Source: Spirochaetaceae bacterium
Lineage (GTDB): Bacteria > Spirochaetota > Spirochaetia > Treponematales > Treponemataceae
Direction of reading: 5' to 3'
Assembly: GCA_031285525.1 (NCBI GenBank)
Contig: JAITWB010000194.1
Span: 1 to 6,036 of the forward strand
DNA: 6,036 bases
Positions 729 to 5,406 of this stretch are shown piece by piece. Below the pieces are notes generated by a model that worked only from the letters and a program-made list of their open reading frames with translations, made no database searches and was not told the DNA's origin. Numbering within the stretch: the first letter of the stretch is position 1; every line of letters begins with the position of its first letter. Position numbers and translations under genes: made by a program.

Positions 729-1541
729 GTGAAAACACCTATTAGCTACTACGGCGGCAAACAGTCGCTCTCTTCAATCATCTTAGGGTTAATCCCGGAT
801 CATCGGATATATTGTGAGCCTTTTTTCGGAGGAGGCGCAATATTTTTTGCTAAAGAACCGTCAAAGGTAGAAATTATCAACGATACAAATTCAGAGCTTA
901 TAAACTTTTACGAAGTCTTAAAGCATGATTTTATATCCCTTGAAAGGGAAGTGTCCATTAGCCTTCATAGTCGTTCTGTGCATCGGCAGGCAGAAGTTAT
1001 CTACGCAAACCCTGATATGTTCGATAGGATAAAACGAGCATGGGCAATCTGGATGCTGGCAAACTCCTCCTATGGTTCTAAACTGGACGGATCTTTCGGA
1101 TATGATCGTGTCGGCACCACTGGCAAGAAACTGAAAAACAAGCGTGAATCCTTCACCGATGATTACGCAATCCGGCTTCAAGAGACACAAATCGAATGCT
1201 GTGATGCCCTGCGGGTGGTCAGAAGCCGTGATACTCATGACACTTTTTTCTACATTGACCCGCCCTACGTGGGCTCTGATCAGGGGCATTATGACGGCTA
1301 TTCACAGGACGATTTTGATAATCTGCTTACTGCCTTGGAAGCAATTCAGGGCAAGTTTTTGTTGAGTTCCTATCGAAACAAAAAACTCACAGAATTTTCC
1401 AAGCGGAACGGATGGTATACAATCGAGCTGAAAGTGTCCTGCGCCATGACTAACCGGAATAATCCGAGGAGCAAGATCGAGGTTCTGACGGCAAATTATC
1501 CCATAACGGTAAAACAAGCGGAGCAACCAGAAGAGAGGTAA
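729..1541 (+). CDS. D12-class DNA adenine-N6 methyltransferase (Dam family), phage-borne
   Basis: A 270-residue protein of the MethyltransfD12 family, which transfers a methyl group from S-adenosylmethionine to N6 of adenine in duplex DNA. The N-terminal YYGGKQ (residues 7-12) and EPFFGGGAIFF (30-40) form the cofactor-binding motif I region; N51-D52-T53-N54 fits the acidic end of the next strand; DPPY at 177-180 is catalytic motif IV. The insert between them (LANSSYG near 110-116 through about 145) is where target recognition lies in this family. KIEVLTANYP (249-258) is the usual C-terminal strand. Length is normal and all motifs are intact, so it should be active. The GTG start follows AGGAGG. 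It lies 188 bases after the tail-fibre gene and ends before a strong terminator. It is probably a prophage modification gene that protects phage DNA from restriction; the target site cannot be read from sequence, and GATC is only the commonest one in the family. Confidence 0.9.
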   Translation: MKTPISYYGGKQSLSSIILGLIPDHRIYCEPFFGGGAIFFAKEPSKVEIINDTNSELINFYEVLKHDFISLEREVSISLHSRSVHRQAEVIYANPDMFDRIKRAWAIWMLANSSYGSKLDGSFGYDRVGTTGKKLKNKRESFTDDYAIRLQETQIECCDALRVVRSRDTHDTFFYIDPPYVGSDQGHYDGYSQDDFDNLLTALEAIQGKFLLSSYRNKKLTEFSKRNGWYTIELKVSCAMTNRNNPRSKIEVLTANYPITVKQAEQPEER

Positions 1542-1564: not shown

Positions 1565-1600
1565 AAAACCCCCTTGTAATAGCACTTACTAGGGGGTTTT
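1565..1600 (+). terminator. Intrinsic terminator after the methyltransferase
   Basis: AAAACCCCCT (1565-1574) pairs perfectly with AGGGGGTTTT (1591-1600); after one mismatch GTAA (1576-1579) pairs with TTAC (1586-1589), leaving a six-base loop. The plus strand has only four T after the GC stem. The minus strand has TTTTCTTTT, so the element may work in both directions and shield the prophage end from incoming transcription. Confidence 0.8.
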
Positions 1601-1659: not shown

Positions 1660-1700
1660 GATTTTATTCGTTAAAACCCGGTAAAATTCGCTAAAATTCG
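1660..1700 (+). repeat. 10-base-phased AT-rich motif array in the prophage end
   Basis: Three successive decamers share a TAAAAnnCG core: TTAAAACCCG (1671-1680), GTAAAATTCG (1681-1690) and CTAAAATTCG (1691-1700); ATTTTATTCG (1661-1670) ends in the same ATTCG in the same phase. The core resembles GCCAAATTGCG of the two 18-base repeats just downstream, so these may be weaker transposase sites. Exact helical phasing would place them on one face of the DNA. Confidence 0.5.
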
Positions 1701-1704
1701 GTTG

Positions 1705-1744
1705 TTTTTGCCAAATTGCGTGACACTTTTTGCCAAATTGCGTG
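1705..1744 (+). repeat. Two 18-base direct repeats offset by 22 bases; putative transposase binding sites
   Basis: TTTTTGCCAAATTGCGTG occurs perfectly at 1705-1722 and 1727-1744, separated by ACAC. The 22-base offset equals the size of MuA-type binding sites, and the pair lies ten bases inside a candidate TGTAACGC end (minus strand, from 1754). The sequence identity and offset are seen directly; the binding role is inferred by analogy with Mu R1-R2. A simple 22-base slippage duplication is the alternative. Confidence 0.6.
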
Positions 1745-2620
1745 GCGCGTTACACCCAGTCAAGCGGGGTAAATGCTATTAGCGGAAAAACATATTATGA
1801 AGACAATATAGCAATTTTTTTCTCAACCACCGCCGAGGGTAGTACAAAGGGAACCTATACTCGTGGAAACTTTTATAGTCAAGGAAACCCTCTGATTGTG
1901 GATGGTAAATACGCATATAACCACATTGAAACAGGCTCCTATGCATGGAACGAAACTGCAAAAACGGTAACCTTAAAGCCTGAAACCACCGAATACAATG
2001 CCGGTGTGTTGTTAACAGAATCTGAATACCGTACAGCATTTATAGAGATGATGACGACACAGCTTGCAGCAATGCCTGAGGATGAAAAGGCTGCAATACT
2101 GGAACAGGCGTTGGCAGCAGGCTATACCAGTTTGGACGAATATATGGAGGATACGGTCGATTATCAGATAGAATTCTTTTTTGGCGTCAGGGCATACAAC
2201 TACTCTTTCAGCGATGATGGGGCAGCATTATTTTTGGTTCAGCCATTGCCGGCAAATAACGGAACGAATGAATTGACAGGGCAGACTTATTACGGAATGA
2301 AGTGGGATAATATTGAACAAGACGATGTTAAAGACGAAACACAATCATACGTTTTTACCGACAATACGTATACATTGACCCTGTACGGGAATTGGGTGAT
2401 CACCGGTTCATATGCATATGATGGCAGTATAATGAAACGGGTTTGGTTAAACCGTAATACAGTAGACGGAAAAACCCGCGCGCAGATGTATGCAGATATG
2501 GCAGTGACGGAACAGCACAATTACGCAGATGATTACGCTTACCGCGCCGCAAAGACAAATAGTCAATTTAGGACTTCGGAAAACATAAGATACGACAATG
2601 TTAATAAAACCATACGCTGA
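1730..2620 (+). pseudogene. 3' part of a secreted-type two-repeat protein gene, 5' end lost at the prophage boundary
   Basis: The frame is open from 1724 to TGA at 2618-2620, about 296 codons from a TTG at 1730. It lacks a ribosome binding site, an ATG before residue 107 and any signal peptide, and its first codons come from the 18-base repeat. The protein has an internal duplication: SSGVNAISGKTYY (residues 11-23) aligns with NNGTNELTGQTYY (176-188), and GSYAWNETAKTVTLKP (69-84) corresponds to GSYAYDGSIMKRVWLN (226-241). Each copy looks like a beta-rich domain ending in a short helix; an acidic helical stretch (about 95-145) links them. Such domains are typical of treponemal lipoproteins of unknown function, which is family knowledge recalled rather than tested. 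Because homology to the second copy starts at residue 11 (base 1760), native coding probably starts about there and the upstream part was displaced by the prophage. It could instead be a real gene with TTG or GTG start, but this is less likely. Confidence 0.65.
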
Positions 2621-2659
2621 GAACCCAAAAGCATAGCGCAAAGGCATCAAACGTAAAGC

Positions 2660-2707
2660 AGGGAAACAGAGACCACCGGAGACGGCAGTCTCTGTTTCCC
2701 TTTTTTT
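2660..2707 (+). terminator. Strong intrinsic terminator
   Basis: AGGGAAACAGAGAC (2660-2673) pairs perfectly over 14 bases with GTCTCTGTTTCCCT (2688-2701); the loop holds a further CCG/CGG pairing (2677-2679 with 2683-2685). The 3' arm runs straight into seven T (2701-2707). It ends transcription of the truncated secreted-type gene about 40 bases after its stop, which suggests the gene was once a real transcription unit. Confidence 0.9.
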
Positions 2708-2809
2708 CTCATTTCACTCTCTTTTCTGCGGATTATAGCAGCGCTGATATGGTGTTATACAGCTTTGTCTATTAAGAATAAAACCTTACTGTCCAATAAT
2801 AATACCGGA
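2708..2809. other. Spacer without recognisable gene
   Basis: About 100 AT-rich bases between the terminator and the palindromic array. I see no open frame, no RNA gene and no promoter with two good boxes, nor any trace of the missing N-terminal half of the Rpn-family gene downstream. Confidence 0.4.
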
Positions 2810-2901
2810 CGATGAGACACCTTCTCATCGCCCGATGAGAGCCTCTCTCATCGAGTGATGAGAGGCATTCTCATAGAGCGAAGGGAGAAGCTCCCTACGG
2901 G
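2810..2901 (+). repeat. Array of four 23-base palindromic units
   Basis: Four head-to-tail units at 2810-2832, 2833-2855, 2856-2878 and 2879-2901. Each is itself a hairpin: GATGAG/CTCATC, CGATGAGAG/CTCTCATCG (nine pairs, three-base loop), ATGAGA/TCTCAT, and AGGGAG/CTCCCT. Hairpin centres fall at 2820, 2843, 2866 and 2889, exactly 23 bases apart. The fourth unit differs in its stem but stays paired (T-A becomes A-T, and A-T becomes G-C). A shorter hairpin AGGG-aag-CCCT (2905-2915) and AAGG/CCTT (2945-2956) may be further decayed members. There are no unique spacers, so it is not a CRISPR array. Confidence 0.75.
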
Positions 2902-2939
2902 ACTAGGGAAGCCCTCACTACAAGACCGCAGATGTAGAG

Positions 2940-3404
2940 ATGCAAAGGAAGCCCTTCGTCGGCATGGAAAACAGAATTGTCTGGTATAACTCATCGATTC
3001 TTGCAGAACAGCAGATAGTACAATATCACATCCTGGAATTGCCAAAAGTCAAAACAGGCGCAATGCCCGCCAGTGATGAACAGGAGAAGAGACTCATACA
3101 GTGGTTGAGATTTTTCAAAGCTAAAACTGAGGAGGATTTTATGGTATTGGCAAGGGAAAGTTCTATTCTCGAAAAAGCTTTTCAGATATTGATGATAGCC
3201 AGCGGAAGTCAGCGGATGAAGGCTATCTATGACGAAAAAAGGAAGGAGGAAGCAACTCTGTACTTCATGCAGAACAGAGCTTATACTCAGGGCCGTGACG
3301 AAAAAGCCCGTGAAACCGCTCAGAAAATGAAGACAGAAGGAATGATCATTGTGGATATAACAAAATATACCGAACTGTCTCCCGAAGTTATTGAAGAACT
3401 GTAA
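2940..3404 (+). pseudogene. 5'-truncated Rpn-family (PD-(D/E)XK-2) nuclease/transposase remnant
   Basis: The 154-residue product corresponds only to the C-terminal half of the Rpn recombination-promoting nuclease / PDDEXK_2 putative transposase family, whose full members are about 280-330 residues. Family-like features are YHILELPKVK (about 30-39), then a helical block with IQWLRFFKAKTEEDF (about 53-67), a QGRDEKARETAQKMK stretch (about 117-131) and the terminal helix-turn ending SPEVIEEL. The whole nuclease domain with its D...E-x-Q/K active site is absent, and no piece of it is seen upstream, where the 23-base palindromic array lies. There is no ribosome binding site at the ATG used; another ATG at 2964 is equally weak. 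The remnant cannot cut DNA and is best read as decayed. It converges on the atp operon across a shared terminator. Confidence 0.75.
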
Positions 3405-3928: not shown

Positions 3929-3943
3929 GAAAACTCCTACTGT

Positions 3944-5406
<1,463 letters not shown>

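Follow-up and report, generated by a model that had tools for sequence, protein, structure and literature searches.

The window, i.e., the whole stretch of 6,036 bases that we analyzed, opens at the contig edge with the C-terminal part of a tail-fibre-like phage protein (1 to 540, plus strand; PHROG tail-fibre and tail families, best E value 5.6e-8), followed by a gene for a dam-type DNA N6-adenine methyltransferase of the D12 class (729 to 1541, plus strand; PF02086, E value 4.5e-27; phrog_56, E value 5.1e-58), which is the final gene ahead of the presumed prophage end. Thus, the tail-fibre and DNA-modification genes that an earlier, sequence-only reading had placed ahead of a pair of repeats are both borne out by family matches. 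The closest relatives of the methylase that bear organism names are mostly from Treponema or Spirochaetaceae. The tail-fibre-like product shows weak similarity (E value 8e-4) to the protein at the corresponding place in a related prophage (c1 of genome G079, described below), which itself matches no PHROG, and no similarity worth the name to the corresponding protein of a second relative, G345. A terminator-like hairpin (1565 to 1600, plus strand; 15-nt arms, 93% complementary, with 6 nt between them) lies 3' of the methylase gene, and further on a ladder of A-tracts in steps of ~10 bp (1661 to 1696, plus strand; AAAA at 1673, 1683, and 1693; 0.042 for the window in our A-run spacing test) adjoins the first of the repeats.

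The repeats are two identical 18-base units (TTTTTGCCAAATTGCGTG) at 1705 to 1722 and 1727 to 1744, offset by 22 bases, exactly as the earlier reading had described them. This pair is the longest exact repeat in the window at offsets of 18 to 60; more specifically, the longest exact run at offsets of 20 to 24 is 18 bases, compared with 9 in 100 sequences simulated with a first-order Markov model of identical composition. Next to them, GTTACA ends at position 1754 and the minus strand reads 5'-TGTAACGC (1747 to 1754), confirming the potential terminus proposed earlier, for which 1754 would be the final phage base. We interpret the repeats as putative transposase sites on the minus strand, namely, an inner site (R2; 1705 to 1726, perfect core 1705 to 1722) and an outer site (R1; 1727 to 1748, perfect core 1727 to 1744), in a GCCAAA register common to four prophages of G079 and to 43 stretches of viral contigs. 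GCC lies 23 bases from the terminus in the window, at both ends in G079, and in Pseudomonas phage B3, and the sequence common to the G079 prophages likewise stops after GTTACA. Tandem sites and a TG...CA terminus, as at the right end of a Mu/B3-type element, are therefore both present in the window, and a transposase would be predicted to bind there. The window holds one prophage end only and no transposase gene, as the contig does not extend to the left end. At the DNA level, no similarity of the window to phage records was detected, and the 17-base repeat core alone, used as a query in viral contigs, gave two unrelated single matches.

The bases that follow the terminus, CCCAG (1755 to 1759, on neither strand in particular), are the predicted copy of a 5-bp target duplication, a prediction based on their position and on two relatives with 5-bp duplications; the second copy would lie beyond the contig. 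CCCAG fits CYSRG, which is given as the target preference of MuA in PMC5977238. This fit is probably due to chance, because none of 12 flanks of scored relatives (see below) fits CYSRG.

Beyond the terminus lies the 3' part of an interrupted, lipoprotein-like host gene (1755 to 2620, plus strand), the product of which is 44 to 48% identical to 11 longer homologues, with homology beginning at ~1760. All 11 aligned homologues extend further at the N terminus, where they have a hydrophobic start and a Cys (as judged by eye), a region that is absent in the window, so the abrupt start within the interior of another gene, as originally noted, is confirmed, and the lipoprotein seems to have lost its export signal through the prophage insertion. 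The protein family comprises 54 members, including the window's own, and the few that carry an organism name are from Treponema or Spirochaetaceae. With the interrupted protein as query, a scan of genome contigs found no relative, and a search of 195 genomes of one family, 10 of which carried the interrupted protein, with the best places 43 to 45% identical, revealed no true empty site. Such a gene cut at the terminus, together with the different flanks of the four G079 copies, conforms to the insertion into arbitrary host genes that characterizes Mu/B3-type elements. Downstream of the interrupted gene are the end of a PD-(D/E)XK transposase family gene and then F-type ATP synthase epsilon and beta genes. 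For the former frame (2940 to 3404), the match to the PD-(D/E)XK nuclease transposase family (PF12784) is confined to the C-terminal part, and the frame is probably a remnant. We also observed an imperfect 30-base inverted repeat (2812 to 2874; 80%, with GATGAGA/TCTCATC units and 3 bases between the arms) and a repeat containing CAATTACTATTGCT, present as two copies of 25 bases (88%) between the epsilon gene and the point where the beta gene ends (3937 to 4001).

An alignment scan of species genomes with the methylase returned 184 relatives, the best 80 of which were considered, and the 29 loci among these with Treponema or Spirochaet- titles were scored for a comparable end. GTTACA was present within 800 bases 3' of dam in 17 of the 29 loci. 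In 12 of the 29, at least 12 of the 20 bases before GTTACA were repeated at an offset of 21 to 23, the best offset being exactly 22 in all 12 cases; the cut-off of 12 was set after the scores had been seen. As a control, none of 142 other GTTACA occurrences in these loci reached a score of 12 (best, 11). The 17 loci that did not score comprised 12 without GTTACA within 800 bases, including two (L055 and L113) with fewer than 300 bases left after dam, and 5 with scores of 5 to 10. Since 17 of the 29 loci did not score, dam alone is no marker of the group. Among the scoring loci the site core varied (mostly TTCC-type; TTGAGAAA in L048), and GTTACA was constant. No GTTACA end passing a cut-off of 13 was found near MuA in G085, G081, G269, G309, G304, and G043, in which some pieces stop short of the ends. 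A possible variant end was noted in G302 (contig C12, ~720 to 783; L271), with GGAATTTGA-type sites at an offset of 21 and CTGACA, 17 kb from a MuA gene; this stretch scores on both strands.

When the MuA protein of G034 (the genome of L048, titled Treponema) was used as a query, 13 of 274 genomes of its family were matched. The strict end pattern GCCAAA-N16-GCCAAA-N11-GTTACA occurred among these 274 genomes in G079 only, four times. This Treponema-family genome carries, on a contig of 3.37 Mb (C1), four related prophages (c1 to c4) of ~34.4 to 35.9 kb, whose aligned stretches are 94.6 to 99.8% identical (part of c3 left out) and whose borders were read where the four copies part. Prophage c1 (826376 to 860910; 34,535 bp) has the same dam end as the window, in the pattern common to all four copies, and at its far end an inverted site, TTTTGCCAAATCTCATGTAAAATGACA; another site lies 134 bp inward of it. 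Its MuA was recognized by PF09299, PF02914, and phrog_310, and the adjoining gene as MuB by the transposition protein family phrog_296; terminase, portal, minor head protein, protease, repressor, and tape measure genes were likewise recognized by family. Perfect 5-bp target duplications flank two of the four copies, namely, CCGTT at c1, for which a 6-bp reading is possible should the final A not belong to the phage, and TGGAC at c3, which fits 5 bp only. The c2 and c4 prophages have no matching duplications of their own; CTGAC is shared crosswise between them, and the reciprocal pair is one base apart (AACGG/ATCGG), suggesting that exchange between Mu-like copies may have rearranged the chromosome. 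The crosswise duplications are located at 480512 and 3090122 of C1 (L181 and L180).

In G079, G034, G326, G345, and G344, MuA, identified by family in all five, lies ~20 kb from the dam end and reads away from it. Terminase and protease genes, assigned by family in G079, G345, and G034, read in opposite directions with MuA between them; a repressor was also recognized by family in G345, and MuB in G079. Apart from MuA, the two-arm layout of G326 and G344 was assigned by likeness only. The far ends of G345 and G034 were looked for and not found. We had considered that MuA might lie beside the far end, as in Mu, with G034 misassembled, and dropped this idea, as a central MuA is also present in G079, G326, G345, and G344.

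Taken together, these data make it very probable (about 0.95) that the window contains the right end, i.e., the tail and methylase side, of a transposable prophage of the Mu/B3 type that has integrated into a Treponema-like spirochaete, within a lipoprotein-like gene, and that the 22-base-spaced sites would bind the phage's own MuA. The sites, the terminus, the gene order, and the interrupted gene are seen in the window itself. MuA, MuB, an inverted partner site, and 5-bp duplications are those identified, by their sequences, in relatives; by extension, MuA would bind to the sites in the window, and the unseen part of the element would carry the same genes. In the mechanism that we propose, two MuA subunits would occupy the 22-base-spaced sites side by side and pair with the inverted site of the far end; MuA would then cut after ...GTTACA and, assisted by MuB, link the ends to the target DNA at positions staggered by 5 bases.

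With a single end visible and a tail-fibre fragment at the contig edge, the window could also be read as part of a smaller Mu-type or Tn552-type transposon, or of a domesticated remnant, that acquired dam and a piece of a tail-fibre gene and is not a full phage. We regard this as very unlikely: G079 c1, which has the same end, carries terminase, portal, minor head, protease, and tape-measure genes, the other three G079 copies match c1 at the above 94.6 to 99.8% over their aligned stretches, and the window's end adjoins a tail gene just as that of c1 does. Repressors and activators can likewise have tandem 22-bp repeats as their sites, and the pair might have arisen by chance or serve a regulatory role, e.g., as operator sites of the flanking gene, in which case the prophage boundary would lie elsewhere. 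Against this stand the terminus, spacing, and order common to G079 insertions, the flanks of which diverge immediately beyond identical bases, as well as the start of host homology within a few codons of the terminus, leaving such a role scarcely credible. Equally improbable is an assembly chimera that joined phage and host at 1754; the window is a contig of 6036 bases known from its sequence alone, yet the break coincides exactly with a conserved phage terminus, as is not expected of a random misjoin.

The prophage-end reading was thus upheld, whereas the view that this Mu-like right end has a site sequence of its own was not: judged by comparison of ends, the GCCAAA site belongs to a class that is widespread among Mu-like ends and resembles the right end of B3. 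The breadth of this class follows from the 43 viral-contig stretches that carry the strict pattern (reversed pattern, none) and from B3, which ends in a GCCAAA-N11-GCTACA version. A Mu-transpos_C match was obtained in 16 of the 43 pattern-bearing viral records, several others being short fragments. We compared 45 ends (the window, one G079 copy, and the 43 viral stretches, some of them near-duplicates), 12 of which have TTTTT before GCCAAA (TTTTTGCCAAA-type ends). An A-tract ladder was significant (spacing test, <0.05) in 8 of these 12 ends, the other 4 failing, versus 1 of the 33 others. The association of the ladder with TTTTTGCCAAA-type ends is a lead, given that the grouping was made after the sequences had been seen.

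The MuA proteins of G326, G345, and G344, which have TTTTTGCCAAA ends, are 34 to 36% identical to that of G079 and 46 to 48% identical to that of G034 over >600 residues, whereas three MuA proteins from other pattern-bearing records reach 20 to 24% over no more than 448 residues, or 31% over a stretch of 96. Because the former are closer to the MuA proteins of G079 and G034, the TTTTT-type ends are tied, by this measure, to the Treponema lineage. The G034 MuA gave 183 matches among 50,697 phage records, all of <60% identity (20 to 30% in 60 entries spread over the ranking), and what is new is, on these identities, the Treponema-lineage branch of MuA. A wider scheme, which we put forward tentatively and consider rather doubtful, is that Treponema-lineage spirochaetes have their own branch of transposable phages, with GCCAAA- or TTCC-type sites and a fixed TGTAAC terminus, in which the 10-bp A-tract ladder of TTTTTGCCAAA-type ends would pre-bend the DNA in place of a host bending protein, and the sites would drift with MuA while the terminus and the 22-bp spacing stay fixed.

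A different terminus was observed in other Mu-like phages. In 9 of 10 loci, which had been chosen for tandem repeats after dam, dam is followed by tandem sites (offset, 22 to 23), and the phage ends in GATTATA (5'-TATAATC); six of the nine are titled Bacteroidota and three are viral contigs (L009, L035, L036, L070, L071, L072, L089, L092, and L095, downstream of dam; see also L286 to L288). Far ends were sought in six of this group: G544 and G541 have TATAGGGGG after the 4-bp repeats CAGG and CATA, respectively, G540 has CCCT before TAAGGGG, and nothing clear was found in G545, G024, and G009. TA-TA ends, which are known from Leptospira, with other bacteria left open (PMC8705779, section 3.3), may therefore occur in Bacteroidota as well, and 4-bp repeats are reported for transposable phages of Porphyromonas in PMC10367356.

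The sequence-only reading had also suggested a little-described group of transposable phages. This holds for the branch in Treponema-lineage hosts, which is little described in print; the kind of phage, a jumping virus, is known. In the open literature, no description of Mu-like or transposable Treponema phages of this group was found by title or start of abstract, nor, by title, anything on this group among the open termite-gut matches listed. That the window itself stems from a termite gut is a guess, based on sample and MAG names. In PMC11144348, a paper on 38 Treponema prophages, the stem "transpos" appears a single time, in the reference list, and the main text of the Leptospira study PMC8705779 makes no mention of Treponema. 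For transposable phages of Treponema-lineage spirochaetes, the ends, the map of the genes, and the size of the duplication are now given. Moreover, their ends form a natural series of fixed spacing and drifting sites, from which the DNA specificity of MuA could be read from sequence, and the multi-copy prophages of G079 look like places of chromosomal exchange.

The paired right-end sites of Mu are also 22 bases apart. As in the window, a modification gene (mom) is the last before the right end of this Escherichia phage (AF083977), whereas its site sequence is another and its transposase gene is at the left end (match at 1973 to 3223); its duplication is 5 bp (PMC8705779). In Pseudomonas phage B3 (AF232233), the right end, GTCATTTATTGCGC...GCCAAATTTCGCGCCGCGCTACA, shares the outer core and the 23-base distance with the window and has a degenerate second site 22 bases inward (9 of 14 bases, by eye). 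In contrast to the window, B3 has one intact GCCAAA only and ends in CTACA, and its duplication is 6 bp (PMC8705779) rather than the 5 bp of G079 c1 and c3. Two arms reading in opposite directions from a regulatory center are described as typical of B3 (PMC8705779), a map shared by the relatives of the window. Likewise, the right end of Burkholderia phage KS10 (NC_011216) has tandem sites at a spacing of 22, and its transposase gene is internal and its head genes fall into two groups, as in these relatives (PMC2628397). Because two opposite arms are typical of B3 and a transposase inside a split head module is published for KS10, the central-transposase, two-arm layout is B3-like and not new. 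KS10 differs in its site (TCAAATTAAACG), in its MuA, which reads toward the tail genes instead of toward terminase as in G079, and in being reported to have neither TG...CA termini nor flanking direct repeats (PMC2628397). Lastly, the transposable prophages of Leptospira share with our group the spirochaete hosts, two-arm B3-like maps (37 to 39 kb), and MuA/MuB, and differ in their reported 6-bp duplications and, in some, TA-TA ends (PMC8705779), compared with the 5-bp duplications of G079 c1 and c3.
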